Positions 2,152-20,600 of a stretch of 34,779 bases of DNA are shown one piece after another. The position numbers and the translations under genes were made by a program. The number at the start of each line of letters is the position of its first letter. Position 1 is the first letter of the stretch. The notes under the pieces were generated by a model, which had not been told where the DNA came from, made no database searches, and was given only the letters and a program-made list of their open reading frames with translations. Source of the stretch: Candidatus Omnitrophota bacterium (GTDB lineage: Bacteria; Omnitrophota; Gorgyraeia; Gorgyraeales; Gorgyraeaceae); the NCBI GenBank assembly GCA_018814825.1, contig JAHIYJ010000055.1, positions 1 to 34,779 of the forward strand, given 5' to 3'.

Positions 2152-2169
2152 ATAACACCTCTCTGTTTA

Positions 2170-2317
2170 ATGACAAATGACAAATTTCAAATGACAAAAT
2201 AAATCCAATCCTTCGACTACGCTCAGGATTGGCCCTGAGCAAAGTCGAAGGGCTAAAATGCTAAATATTAAACTATTGGTCTTATTTTTTTGAATTTTGG
2301 ATTTTGTCATTTGGATT
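2170..2317. repeat. Head-to-head heptamer arrays flanking a palindrome, reaching into ispD
   Basis: Left array 2170-2197: ATGACAA twice, ATTTCAA, ATGACAA. Right array 2290-2317: TTGAATT, TTGGATT, TTGTCAT, TTGGATT, the reverse-complement family of the left. The right array is coding: it supplies residues about 226-234 of IspD (PNDKIQNS), just before the stop. The centre holds a separate palindrome at 2210-2251. Confidence 0.75.
2210..2251. repeat. REP-like palindrome in the ispD-ispF gap
   Basis: Arms CCTTCGACTACGCTCAGG (2210-2227) and CCTGAGCAAAGTCGAAGG (2234-2251) pair over 18 bp with two mismatches around a 6-bp loop. An alternative stem CCAATCC/GGATTGG (2205-2211 with 2226-2232) overlaps it. 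The CCTTCGAC...CTCAGG palindrome type is, as I recall, widespread in bacterial intergenic regions. No transposase is nearby. Confidence 0.75.
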
Positions 2318-2992
2318 TTTAAGTAGTAATTTTGCCAATTCTAAATCTTCTCTTGTCGTGATCTTTATATTACTATACGAACCCATAATAATCTTGGGCC
2401 TTATTCCCATCATCTCAACAAGCATGGAATCATCTGTTATATTAATATCTCTTTTGTAGAATTTCTTATAGGCCTTCTCTATTAAATCCCTTTTGAATAC
2501 CTGGGGTGTCTGAGCCTCCCAGAAATCCCTCCTGTCAGGCGTATGATTAATGCGGCCGTCTTTCCCGGTTATCTTCAAGGTCGGCTTTACGGGTACACCG
2601 GCTACCGCCGCCCCGAATTTCATCGCGGCTTTCAGGCAGGCGTTTATCAAAGCATCGTCTATAAATGGCCTGATCCCGTCATGTATCAACACATAGCCTA
2701 TGTCGGGCGACACGCTTTCAAGCGCCCTGGCTACAGAGTCTATTCTTTCTTTCCCGCCCCTGACGACCTTTGCGTTTCTTATACCGTACCTATTTATTAT
2801 GTCTCGCTGGGCGCGGCGCACCCTGTTAGGGCTCACAGCGATTATTATTTCTTTTATATTGCTGTTGTGCGAAAGACGCAATAAAGTCCTGGCAAGGATA
2901 GGCTTGCCATTAATCTTTATATAAGGCTTTTCTATTCTTGATTTTATCCTTGTACCCTTACCTGCGGAAGGAACGATAGCGGCTACTCGCAT
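2282..2992 (-). CDS. ispD: 2-C-methyl-D-erythritol 4-phosphate cytidylyltransferase
   Basis: Third MEP-pathway enzyme: it forms CDP-ME from MEP and CTP. The N-terminal VAAIVPSAGKGTRIKS is the CTP-binding glycine-rich loop (AAGxGxR type), with GKPILARTL following; VLIHDGIRPF and WEAQTPQVFK are the other conserved blocks. The start chosen is the ATG at 2990-2992, giving [11 protein letters not shown] (236 residues). It overlaps the yacL stop as TGATG, which indicates translational coupling; the TTG one codon upstream is less likely. The last 11 residues (NPNDKIQNSKK) extend past the usual fold and come from a heptamer array. Confidence 0.93.
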   Translation of the reverse strand: MRVAAIVPSAGKGTRIKSRIEKPYIKINGKPILARTLLRLSHNSNIKEIIIAVSPNRVRRAQRDIINRYGIRNAKVVRGGKERIDSVARALESVSPDIGYVLIHDGIRPFIDDALINACLKAAMKFGAAVAGVPVKPTLKITGKDGRINHTPDRRDFWEAQTPQVFKRDLIEKAYKKFYKRDINITDDSMLVEMMGIRPKIIMGSYSNIKITTREDLELAKLLLKNPNDKIQNSKK

Positions 2993-10934: not shown

Positions 10935-10951
10935 AGAAAAGCCTCCTGATC

Positions 10952-11088
10952 ATTAAACACTAAACTCTAAATCCTAAACTCTAAACAAACTCTAAATTCA
11001 AAATCACAAATCCAAAACTTCATGTTTGAAGATTGGTATTTATGATTTGGGATTTGTTTAGTGTTTAGGGTTTCGGATTTAGGATTTA
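10952..11088. repeat. Large head-to-head heptamer array between mcsA and mcsB
   Basis: Left arm 10952-11018: ATTAAAC ACTAAAC TCTAAAT CCTAAAC TCTAAAC, a 4-bp slip, then TCTAAAT TCAAAAT CACAAAT CCAAAAC. Right arm, to 11088, holds the complementary family (ATTTATG, ATTTGGG, ATTTGTT, TAGTGTT, TAGGGTT, TCGGATT, TAGGATT). Together they could form an imperfect hairpin of roughly 60-bp arms that fills nearly the whole gap between two genes that normally abut. Confidence 0.8.
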
Positions 11089-16318: not shown

Positions 16319-17683
16319 TTAATTTAAGCTTACTCTGGAGGTTTTGTAGCCGGTGACAAACAGGTGCGTATTGCCTTCGCTGACAGAGTCATGGATCCTG
16401 CCTTTTGAGTCTATGAAGCAGGAATAGCCGGTGTTCGCGCATCTTACGACAGGTACCCTGTTCTCTATAGCCCTGAAGACCGAACACGCGGCGTGCTGGT
16501 ATGGCGCACCGCTTTTGCCATACCAGGCATCGTTGGTGATGACCACCAGGAATCTTGCGCCATTCCTGACAAACTCTCTAGCAAGAGATGGAAAGATATC
16601 TTCGAAACAAATTAATGTGCCAAACTTAATGTTTCGGCTGAAAGCTGAAGGCTGAAAGCTGAAGGCTTTATATTCCTTTCCTGGAGTGAATTCCCCCAGT
16701 TCTCCCAGGACTAACCTGTGCAGAATAGGAAGATTATCCGAAAACGGCACATATTCGCCGAATGGGACGAGATGGATCTTGTTGTACTCCGCTTCTACCT
16801 CCCCTCTCGGGGAAACCAAAACAGCGCTGTTATAAGTATCTAAACCCCTGGTTGTGTTAGCCCCTATCAGCGTCGGTATCATTATTTCTTTTACCATTTT
16901 CAGGACACGGTTTGTCTCTTCCTTGTCTTCCATGAAAAATCCCGGGAAAGAAGTTTCCGGCCATATTATCAGGTCAGGGTTCTGGAAAGCCACAAGCCTT
17001 GTGAGATTTATGTATTTTTTTATTATATCATCCGCGGCCGCGGGGTCCCATTTGACCTCCTGCGGGATATTGCCCTGGATAACCGAGACTCTTATATCCT
17101 GACCTTCTTTCGTCTCATTAACTCTCATCATCCCGTATCCAAACACCATTGCCAGCATGAGTCCGGCTATCACCAATTCCCTGAGAGACCTTCTGAAAAA
17201 TTTATAGACAGCCACGTTCACCGTCATTATCACAAAGGAAACCCCATATACTCCCGAGAAGTCAGCGACCTGTATAAGGAGATGGTTTTTGTATTGCGAA
17301 TAACCTAATAGCGACCAGCCGAATCCTGTAAAGAGACGCGCCTTGACCCATTCAAGAGATATCCATATAAGGGGAATTAAAAATATAGCGTATAGCGTGC
17401 AGCGTTTAGCGTATAAATTAAAAAATAGGGCAAAGATGCCAAAATATAACGCTAAATACAGACACAGAATAATTAACCCAATAACAGTCACATGATAAAG
17501 CCAGTATAGGACTCCCAGGTAAAATAAAAACCCGGAGATATATGAGATCAGAAATGCCTTCCTGGGAGATTTATTTTGTATCGCGAAAAAAAGCGGGACA
17601 AAACCTACAAAAGCAAGATAGCTGAGATTGAAATCAGGGAAGGCTAGGATTAATAGTATCGCTGAAAATATCGCAAGGAGCAT
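16319..17683 (-). CDS. lnt: Apolipoprotein N-acyltransferase
   Basis: Inner-membrane enzyme adding the third acyl chain to lipoproteins, a prerequisite for Lol sorting. The protein has 454 residues. An N-terminal bundle of several transmembrane helices fills residues 1-180, followed by a nitrilase-fold domain. Catalytic Glu243 (WPETSFPG), Lys302 (YNKIHLVPFGEY) and Cys359 (LICFEDIFP) are all present. Two heptamer arrays are read as protein: residues about 339-349 (KAFSFQPSAFS) and about 94-101 (RCTLYAIF). The ATG abuts a TATCAGC array, so no Shine-Dalgarno sequence is visible. Confidence 0.94.
   Translation of the reverse strand: MLLAIFSAILLILAFPDFNLSYLAFVGFVPLFFAIQNKSPRKAFLISYISGFLFYLGVLYWLYHVTVIGLIILCLYLALYFGIFALFFNLYAKRCTLYAIFLIPLIWISLEWVKARLFTGFGWSLLGYSQYKNHLLIQVADFSGVYGVSFVIMTVNVAVYKFFRRSLRELVIAGLMLAMVFGYGMMRVNETKEGQDIRVSVIQGNIPQEVKWDPAAADDIIKKYINLTRLVAFQNPDLIIWPETSFPGFFMEDKEETNRVLKMVKEIMIPTLIGANTTRGLDTYNSAVLVSPRGEVEAEYNKIHLVPFGEYVPFSDNLPILHRLVLGELGEFTPGKEYKAFSFQPSAFSRNIKFGTLICFEDIFPSLAREFVRNGARFLVVITNDAWYGKSGAPYQHAACSVFRAIENRVPVVRCANTGYSCFIDSKGRIHDSVSEGNTHLFVTGYKTSRVSLN
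16636..16670. repeat. Heptamer array in the lnt nitrilase domain
   Basis: GGCTGAA AGCTGAA GGCTGAA AGCTGAA GGCTTTA, five units of 7 bp, encoding KAFSFQPSAFS on the minus strand. It lies between the active-site lysine and cysteine blocks of Lnt, at a place where a surface loop is expected. Confidence 0.85.
17385..17412. repeat. Heptamer array in the lnt membrane domain
   Basis: ATAGCGT ATAGCGT GCAGCGT TTAGCGT, 7-bp period, encoding part of LYAKRCTLYAIF between two hydrophobic helices. The unit is the same as that in lptE (26704-26762), 9 kb away. Confidence 0.8.
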
Positions 17684-17685
17684 AT

Positions 17686-17763
17686 TATCAGCTATCAGCT
17701 ATCAGCTATCAGCTATCAGCAAAACATTTAAAACTGATAGCTGAAGACTGAAAGCTGAAAGCT
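17686..17763. repeat. Head-to-head heptamer hairpin between secA and lnt
   Basis: Five perfect TATCAGC units (17686-17720), an A-rich spacer, then the complementary family ACTGATA GCTGAAG ACTGAAA GCTGAAA GCT (17733-17763). The two arms can fold on each other. The array fills the whole 83-bp gap, starting 2 bp from the lnt ATG and ending 3 bp before the secA stop. Confidence 0.88.
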
Positions 17764-17766
17764 CCT

Positions 17767-20532
17767 CTATTTTCCGCAGCATTTTTTGTATTTTTTGCCG
17801 CTGCCGCACGGACATGGGTCATTACGGCCGACCTTTGGCTCTTCGCGCCTGTATGGCCTCGACTCAGACTGGTTACCTGAGTCTTCTATGTCTGCCGGTC
17901 CCGCGGAAGAACCGGACATACTGGACATGGGCACGGCCTCACTGTGCTCAAATTTCTTTGGCAGGACCTGAAATACGCCCCGCGGGCGGCCTTCCTCGCG
18001 CATGGCCTGCACCTTGAACAAAAATTCTACTGTCTCGTCTTTTATGGAGTCTATCATCGCCATGAACATATCATAACCCTCGTGCTGATACTCAACCAAT
18101 GGGTCGCGCTGGCCATATGCCCTTAGGCCAATACCTTCTCTGAGATTATCCATGGCGTGCAGATGGTCTTTCCACTTTGTGTCAATCACCTGGAGCATGA
18201 CCATTTTCTCCATGTGTCTTACGAGCTCAGGGCCCATCCTTTTTTCTTTTTCCTCATAATACGACTTTACCGTCCCGACCAGCTCATCAAGTATAGCGTC
18301 CCTGTCCTTCCCCTCCACCATGTCTTCCAGGCCTTCGAGTCTGATATTGAACTTTGACCAGAACCATTCCGTAAACTCTGTGTATTTCCAGTCCGACTTA
18401 TGCTGGTCAGGATTAAGATATAAACCTATGGCACTGTCTATCAACTCCTCTATTATCTCATAGAGATGTTCCTTTATATTCTCCCCCAGCAGTATCTTTT
18501 TTCTCTCCTCGTATATGACTTCCCTCTGCTTATTCATCACGTTATCGTACTCAAGGACATGCTTTCGTATGTCGAAATTATGCTGCTCCACCCTTTTCTG
18601 GGCAACCTCTATAGCCCTTGTTATAAGAGGGTGCTGTATGTCCTGCCCTTCCTCTATGCCGAGCCTGTTATATATGGCCGATATCTTACCCGAACCAAAG
18701 AGACGCATAAGATCGTCTTCAAGCGATATGTAAAATCTGGAAGAACCCGGGTCTCCCTGTCTGCCCTGCCGGCCGCGCAGCTGGTTATCTATGCGCCTGG
18801 ATTCATGTCGTTCAGTGCCTATCACGTGCAAACCGCCCAGCTGCACAACTTTCTCGTGCTCATCTTTCACCTTAGCCTTCGCCTCTTCAAGCAAACTGTC
18901 CATTTCTTCTTTTGTCACATTTTTAGGCCCCAGGCCTTTCGCCTTAAGCCAGTCACTGACCATCAATTCAGGATTACCTCCCAGCAGAATATCAGTGCCT
19001 CTACCCGCCATATTTGTTGCTATGGTCATGGCGCCCAGCCTGCCGGCCTGGGCGATAATCGTGGCTTCCATCTCGTGATACTTAGCGTTCAGGACATTGT
19101 GCGGTATCCCGCGGCGGCTCAAAAAAGAACTGATACGCTCTGACTTTTCTATCGAAATAGTGCCCACAAGGGCAGGCCTTCCTTTTCTATATAATTCCTC
19201 GATCTCGTTACAGGCGGCGTCAAACTTCTCTTTCTCGGTTTTATAGATCACGTCGGGATAGTTTGTCCTTATTAGCGGTTTATTAGTGGGAATGGATGCC
19301 GTGTCCAGCTTGTAGATATGGCTGAATTCCTGGGCCTCTGTCATGGCGGTGCCTGTCATTCCGGAAAGCTTTTGATACATCTTAAAATAATTCTGGAACG
19401 TAATGGTGGCTAACGTTTGGTTTTCCCGCGCTATCTTAAAGCCCTCTTTCGCCTCGATCGCCTGATGCAATCCGTCTGACCACCTGCGGCCCGGCATCAG
19501 GCGGCCCGTAAATTCATCGACGATAATCACCTCGCCGTCCTTCGCCACGTAATCAACGTCTCTTTCAAAAAGGTTGTGGGCCTTAAGGGCCTGTATGATA
19601 TGGTGCCTGTATTCCATGGTGCTTATGTCATGCATGTTATCAATCCCGAGCATCTCGGAAACCCTGGCCTCTCCGTCCTCTGTCAGGTGCGCGGTATGCG
19701 CCTTTTCGTCAACAATATATTCATAGCCTTTTGAAAGGTCTATGCCTTTGAACTTGGCGTCGATCTCGTCTTTTTCCAATATTATCCTGCCTTTTAAGTG
19801 CGGCACTATCTTATTGCATATGTAATACTTTTCGGTAGATTCCTCCGAGGGGCCAGAAATAATAAGCGGGGTCCGCGCCTCGTCAATAAGTATACTGTCC
19901 ACCTCATCGACAATAGCGTAGTTTAATTCCCTCTGTACCCTGTCTTCTTTTCTGACCACCATATTGTCGCGCAGATAGTCAAAGCCGAACTCATTGTTGG
20001 TCCCGTAAGTAATGTCGCTGCCGTAAGCCATCTGCCTGAGTTCCGGACCCATGTCATGCTGTATCACGCCTACCGTAAGCCCCAGGAACTCAAAAACAGG
20101 GCCCATCCAGTCCCTATCTCTCCTGGCCAGATAATCATTGACCGTTACGATATGGACGCCTTTCCCGCTAAACGCATTCAAATAAGCGGCCAGCGTCGCG
20201 ACAAGCGTCTTTCCTTCGCCAGTCGTCATCTCGGCGATCTTACCCTGATGCAGGACAATGCCTCCCATAAGCTGCACGTCAAAGTGTCTCATCCTTATCG
20301 TGCGCCAGGCCGCCTCCCGCACCACACTAAACGCCTCAGGCATGATATCATCCAGGGTCTCATCCTTTGAGATACGGGCCTTAAACTCATCAGTCTTTCT
20401 ACTCAGCTCATCATTGCTGAGCTTCTTTATCTCAGACTCAAGGGAGTTTATTTTATCGACCAGAGGCTTTAGCCTCCTGATCTCCCTCTGATTCTGCGAC
20501 CCTATGATTTTTCTTAATATCCAAGTAAACAT
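17767..20532 (-). CDS. secA: SecA preprotein translocase ATPase
   Basis: Motor driving protein export through SecYEG. The 921 residues contain Walker A TTGEGKT in [40 protein letters not shown] (Walker B), [22 protein letters not shown] and [15 protein letters not shown]. The C-terminus carries [16 protein letters not shown], the zinc-binding SecB/ribosome-contact motif, with a flexible linker before it. It is flanked on both sides by heptamer hairpins; the upstream array supplies AAGG, 7 bases before the ATG, as its only ribosome site. Confidence 0.97.
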
Positions 20533-20534
20533 AA

Positions 20535-20600
20535 TTCAGCCTTCAGCCTTCAGCCTTCAGCCTTCAGCAGCTGATAGCTGAAAGCTGATAACCGAAAGCT
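20535..20600. repeat. Head-to-head heptamer hairpin between prfB and secA
   Basis: TTCAGCC four times then TTCAGCA (20535-20569), followed by GCTGATA GCTGAAA GCTGATA ACCGAAA GCT (20570-20600), the opposite-strand family. On the minus strand the unit reads GGCTGAA and its AAGG words lie just before the secA ATG. Confidence 0.88.

Follow-up and report, generated by a model that had tools for sequence, protein, structure and literature searches.

Opposed heptamer arrays at the secA-lnt junction of an Omnitrophota genome as a probable dispersed palindromic element

The gap between secA and lnt in the Omnitrophota genome studied here is filled by two short arrays of heptamers that face each other, which raises the question of whether this structure serves lnt as a start signal or is one copy of something that also occurs elsewhere. 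The window, that is, the whole 34,779-nt stretch of DNA that was analyzed, is contig C4 of a 1.30-Mb genome assembled into 103 contigs and 92% complete. The named relatives found through SecA are nearly all Candidatus Omnitrophota metagenome-assembled genomes (MAGs). Statistics for the genome itself were obtained from a 542-kb sample of this 1.3-Mb MAG, with all-N loci removed. Some stretches of the sample were picked for holding matches, and the subset picked by contig number gave the same densities.

The secA-lnt junction and its hairpin

The junction lies between secA (17767..20532, minus strand; SecA Pfam domains; stop codon at 17767-17769) and the downstream gene lnt (16319..17683, minus strand; Pfam domains LNT_N and CN_hydrolase; ATG at 17681-17683), and secA is itself preceded by prfB, identified by its PCRF and RF-1 Pfam domains. 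As the first-pass annotation had described, five exact copies of TATCAGC (17686..17720) stand opposite about four units of the complementary family (17733..17763), and together they occupy the 83-nt gap from the secA stop to the lnt start. The right arm is degenerate and of the GCTGA type, with the units ACTGATA, GCTGAAG, ACTGAAA, GCTGAAA, and GCT; on the plus strand, the sequence 3' of the loop up to 17763 is ACTGATAGCTGAAGACTGAAAGCTGAAAGCT. In the 12-nt loop AAAACATTTAAA (17721..17732), the stretch CAGCAAAA with the T-rich run and AA behind it is similar to TCAGC-family loops in the genomes G020, G064, and G119. In transcript sense, the gap is predicted to form a near-complete RNA hairpin of -42.6 kcal/mol, which is lower than in 200 of 200 shuffled sequences (z of -6.8 to -7.9, about -7 for this hairpin). 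It is followed directly by AUAAU and the AUG and thus lacks the U-tract of an intrinsic terminator. An Rfam scan covering the window and five loci from this genome matched only rRNA and no other RNA family.

The lnt ATG has no canonical Shine-Dalgarno sequence just upstream, which agrees with the first-pass annotation, and the array had been proposed to have displaced or become the ribosome entry region. This proposal was not supported. None of the lnt orthologues examined has a Shine-Dalgarno sequence, whether a heptamer hairpin or another palindrome precedes the gene, about 5 nt separate it from secA, or the two genes overlap by 16 nt, and in the same test only about 40% of the genes of this genome have one. 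A lost ribosome entry site is therefore not implied, and displacement by the array was rejected. Shine-Dalgarno sequences are rarer where 12 nt or less separate the start from the end of an inverted repeat (20% of 25) than where the distance is greater (53% of 40), which may simply reflect tight, coupled junctions. Seen from lnt, an AGGAG is present beyond the hairpin, right behind the secA stop. That folding carries it to the lnt ATG was considered and rejected; since no AGGAG was seen at those other gap-filling TCAGC elements that had their junctions inspected, the one at secA-lnt is treated as incidental.

The same gap was compared among 13 genomes of the family. Heptamer hairpins of three unit types are present in G000, G004, G014, and G003, and palindromes without heptamers are present in G002, G006, and G008. 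No palindrome was found in G007, G011, G012, and G018, in which lnt begins a few bases on or overlaps secA by 16 nt, and the gap was not judgeable in G009 and G010. Genus g3 alone includes junctions with a heptamer palindrome, a non-heptamer palindrome, or none. The gaps without hairpins are tiny, which fits hairpins being insertions into a tight junction. The evidence points to a dispersed palindromic element inserted in a tight gap rather than to an lnt-specific leader.

Opposed heptamer arrays in the window and the genome

Fold-back pairs recur in the window. The prfB-secA gap contains TTCAGCC repeated 4.9 times (20535..20568) and the right arm AGCTGATAGCTGAAAGCTGATAACCGAAAGCT (20569..20600). 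A CTAAANN/TTTAGNN palindrome has its outer arms at 10951..10986 and 11055..11088 and an internal phase break. In a composite site, a degenerate AATGACA array (2169..2198) faces a degenerate right arm (2288..2319). The first-pass annotation had listed these three sites as the same layout built from unrelated units. The recurrence stands at 20535-20600 and 10951-11088 and, in more degenerate form, at 2169-2319, but the units are not all unrelated, as TTCAGCC belongs to the TCAGC family of the secA-lnt array. The composite site also needs correction: its arms are opposed, but a different palindrome, CCTTCGACT...AGTCGAAGG (2210..2251), is nested between them, and the right arm extends over the 3' end of the neighboring ORF. 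A one-armed CCTTGAG heptamer array is located at 604-634 within the minus-strand ORF 200-1669.

Seven is the only enriched tandem period in the 542-kb sample, with 5.2 arrays per 100 kb versus at most 0.7 for the other periods from 4 to 12; counting only the window and the contigs picked by number gave 5.0 per 100 kb. Within the first 356 kb of the sample, an opposed partner at a distance of up to 150 nt was found for 16 of 23 intergenic arrays versus 1 of 10 in-gene arrays, and a direct partner was found for only 1 of 33 arrays. The opposed-partner scores were at least 12, compared with about 6 at random places. The genome scan suggested in the first-pass annotation thus showed opposed 7-bp arrays to be neither rare nor near chance level, which their pairing far exceeds. 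Of 192 codirectional gaps of 20 to 400 nt, 69 contain an inverted repeat with a score of at least 12, versus 0.4 expected from shuffles. The heptamer hairpins are a subset of these repeats, and the remainder represents other palindrome families. Sampled stretches of other genomes have such palindromes in 6% (G022 and G043) to 65% (G014) of their gaps, and Escherichia coli K-12 has them in 12%. A preference for codirectional gaps was rejected, the per-gap frequencies being alike (20/311 for codirectional and 2/32 for other gaps). A small, streamlined Omnitrophota genome thus carries palindromes in about one-third of its gene gaps of 20 to 400 nt, a sizeable part of which are heptamers of several unrelated sequences with fixed polarity.

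The arm units in this genome belong to the families TCAGCNN, TAGCGNN, ACCGTTN, TTTAGNN (as CTAAA/TTTAG), CTGTGAA, TTCGTGA, and GTAGTGA, and where sampling is best, a unit has about five constant and two variable bases. Most heptamer hairpins are 35 to 100 bp long, some reach 150 to 175 bp, and the lengths of loop-free TCAGC elements follow 7-bp steps (35, 42, 49, 56, 63, and 70 bp). Since several unit families form fold-back pairs, also at the secA-lnt junction of other genera, it is the architecture that recurs rather than one sequence, as had been suggested from the window.

Arrays are also found inside genes. In lnt itself, a TTTCAGC-family array (16637..16667, minus strand; amino acids 339-349) and a CGCTATA-family array (17384..17415, minus strand; amino acids 90-100) are in frame in variable loops, and in several species, variable Lnt loops likewise contain heptamers or palindromes of other kinds. 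The in-gene arrays whose frame was checked read without stops, a pattern probably to be expected if insertions have been under purifying selection. The lnt of G007 (locus L113) contains an in-frame opposed heptamer pair, GAGGTCA/CTGTCCT, and that of G014 (locus L042) contains in-frame palindromic inserts read as CHCEERSDEAI...RLLRFARNDK and SFPLPEGERVRVRG. Annotators should not take gaps of this kind for leaders and should regard peptides like KAFSFQPSAFS or SEVRGQKSEVRSQ within conserved proteins as element derived.

The polarity of the hairpins is fixed. Of 147 genomes of the class, 13 have TCAGC...GCTGA hairpins and none has the opposite arrangement; of 99 genomes, 6 have TAGCG...CGCTA hairpins and again none has the opposite one. 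An inverted repeat is the same from both strands, so the polarity belongs to the element, and arrays that arose independently would yield both arrangements. In G027, whole TAGCG elements are located at unrelated loci in both orientations, and the best pairs share 82 to 90% identity over 80 to 140 bp, loop included. TCAGC elements occupy different gene junctions in different genomes, among them junctions that, from reading the flanking protein sequences, we take to be rpmF-plsX and alr-tsaB. The phase break CTAAACAAA of the CTAAA/TTTAG palindrome in the window is also found in a second copy in the same genome and in G003, G157, and G166; the last belongs to another class, so the phase break is common to two classes.

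Origin of the elements

The features actually observed, namely arms built of heptads, a fixed polarity, dispersal, turnover at one junction, and occurrence within coding loops, support a reading in which the secA-lnt array is probably one instance of a non-autonomous palindrome (REP-, RPE-, or MITE-like) that is dispersed and has heptamer arrays as its arms. Elements of this type resemble small parasites inserted into the genome, not a new start signal for lnt. They would spread as whole units, both arms together with the loop, through transposition by a presumed enzyme, would land or survive mostly in short intergenic gaps, and would be transcribed as intercistronic hairpins. Their unit number may later change in 7-bp steps by slippage within one arm, which would explain five identical TATCAGC units opposite a heterogeneous right arm. 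If folded in vivo, the hairpin would hold the stop of the first gene near the start of the second, and it may be tolerated, perhaps neutrally, because harm to coupled translation is thereby limited. With similar per-gap frequencies in codirectional and other gaps, tolerance rather than a function in operons is the simplest reason for the position. Some features count against this reading. Target-site duplication, a trait of MITEs, was not detected, as 27 elements gave no signal (mean flank repeat of 1.30 versus 0.98, with a standard deviation of 0.24), no transposase could be tied to the heptamer hairpins, and some one-armed in-gene arrays can be explained by whole-element insertion only with arm loss or local expansion. 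As a mobile-element question, the dominance of 7-bp tandem repeats in many bacteria, an old puzzle, becomes testable.

Opposed arms could also originate locally if polymerase slippage in 7-nt steps, combined with template switching over a small palindrome, made them de novo with nothing moving. The dominance of period 7, the homogeneity of one arm only, and the one-armed arrays in genes are consistent with such an origin, and a 7-nt polymerase effect was proposed by Mrazek et al., as cited in PMC4679880. However, it accounts poorly for the fixed polarity, for near-identical whole elements at unrelated loci, and for unit families and a phase break common to distant genomes, and we regard it as unlikely. 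A little less likely still is a distinct class of mobile palindromes with machinery that reads or writes DNA in 7-nt steps, which would produce unrelated elements with heptad arms, fixed polarity, and replacement of units in step in both arms. A hint of such machinery is that the units in the prfB-secA and secA-lnt gaps are AGCYNTC in G000 and AGCYNTA in G004 and G014; genome-wide, G000 has 36 AGCYNTC and no AGCYNTA units, and G014 has no AGCYNTC and 41 AGCYNTA units.

A selected RNA structure whose sequence is free to vary, stabilizing the mRNA or coupling the translation of secA and lnt, would suit the great stability of the hairpins, some of which bring stop and start together, and the finding that most judgeable genomes of the family have a palindrome in the prfB-secA gap, the secA-lnt gap, or both. 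Four of those genomes nevertheless lack one at secA-lnt, no preference for a gap type is seen, and the opposing units of the element at locus L203 do not covary in register, which makes this function improbable. The paired layout on opposite strands has been reported in Geobacter metallireducens (PMC2700814), and by analogy the arrays might be paired sites for an IHF/HU-like nucleoid protein as proposed there, but the unit sequences differ so widely within one genome that no single motif could be recognized, and such a role is very improbable. Intrinsic terminators would likewise be stem-loops between genes, yet a T-rich tract follows only 2 of 65 intercistronic inverted repeats and only one of nine convergent gaps has such a repeat, so termination as their role is scarcely credible.

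Relation to known repeats and neighboring elements

A dispersed palindrome with heptad arms has partial counterparts in four known systems. In G. metallireducens, paired heptanucleotide sites (class 3, MTYCTGA; class 2, TCTCCGTS) are predicted to bind regulators (PMC2700814). Like the elements described here, they are tandem 7- to 8-mers, mostly in opposite-strand pairs, and dispersed genome-wide; however, they are the predicted regulator-binding sites of one species, whereas the present elements comprise many unit families in tight intercistronic positions across the phylum and also in coding loops. The TAACTGA arrays of Beggiatoaceae, cyanobacteria, and Bacteroidetes consist of heptamers that end just before start codons, where Shine-Dalgarno sequences are rare (PMC4679880). 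These and STRR arrays share tandem 7-mers in intergenic DNA with the present elements, and TAACTGA is one base off the TAGCTGA units found here. The TAACTGA arrays are direct, with one inverted case in 170 (PMC4679880), whereas 16 of the 23 intergenic arrays here have opposed arms. Rickettsia palindromic elements (RPE), which are 105 to 146 bp long, occur between genes and in frame within conserved genes (reviewed in PMC2229807). The resemblance is in the mode of occurrence only, and no heptad structure is described for RPE in that review. REP elements with RAYT transposases are short, dispersed intercistronic palindromes in species-specific families (PMC2817692), as are the short dispersed palindromes here in their placement, and this genome has two RAYT genes with palindromes of their own. 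Unlike REP, the present elements have heptad arms and no common GTAG/GTGG head; the TCAGC elements listed start with AGC(T/C) or AGT, and the TAGCG elements start with TAGCG. The present elements therefore combine traits of the Geobacter, TAACTGA, RPE, and REP systems and correspond to the full definition of none of them. No paper on repeats of this kind in Omnitrophica came up in a limited literature search.

The two RAYT-type (Y1_Tnp) genes of this genome, at L193 2505-3997 and L194 1293-2388, adjoin palindrome families of their own (AATAGGGGACAGCGACC... and TTAACTTGACAAAACTTACA..., families B and C). Mobilization of the heptamer hairpins by RAYT was rejected, as the RAYT genes are flanked by these other palindromes instead, and 12 further RAYT loci that were checked had no opposed heptamer hairpin.

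Another intergenic element with several stems was observed in the same genome. Its consensus is AAGTGAGGACAT, a hairpin, TGTCCGAACTTACCCCGCACC, GGTGCGGGGT, and often TGCTCATT, and the sample contains seven copies with an exact core (L156 12308, L156 10877, L206 16512, L159 17867, L196 6205, L207 5416, and L160 3054), the others being variants. It had no Rfam match in the loci scanned and is possibly a structured RNA or else an attC-like site. In G129, positions 5-58 of contig C16 form a contig end of TTTAGGG repeats that resembles a plant telomere, and it is possibly a contaminant contig or an extreme heptamer array.
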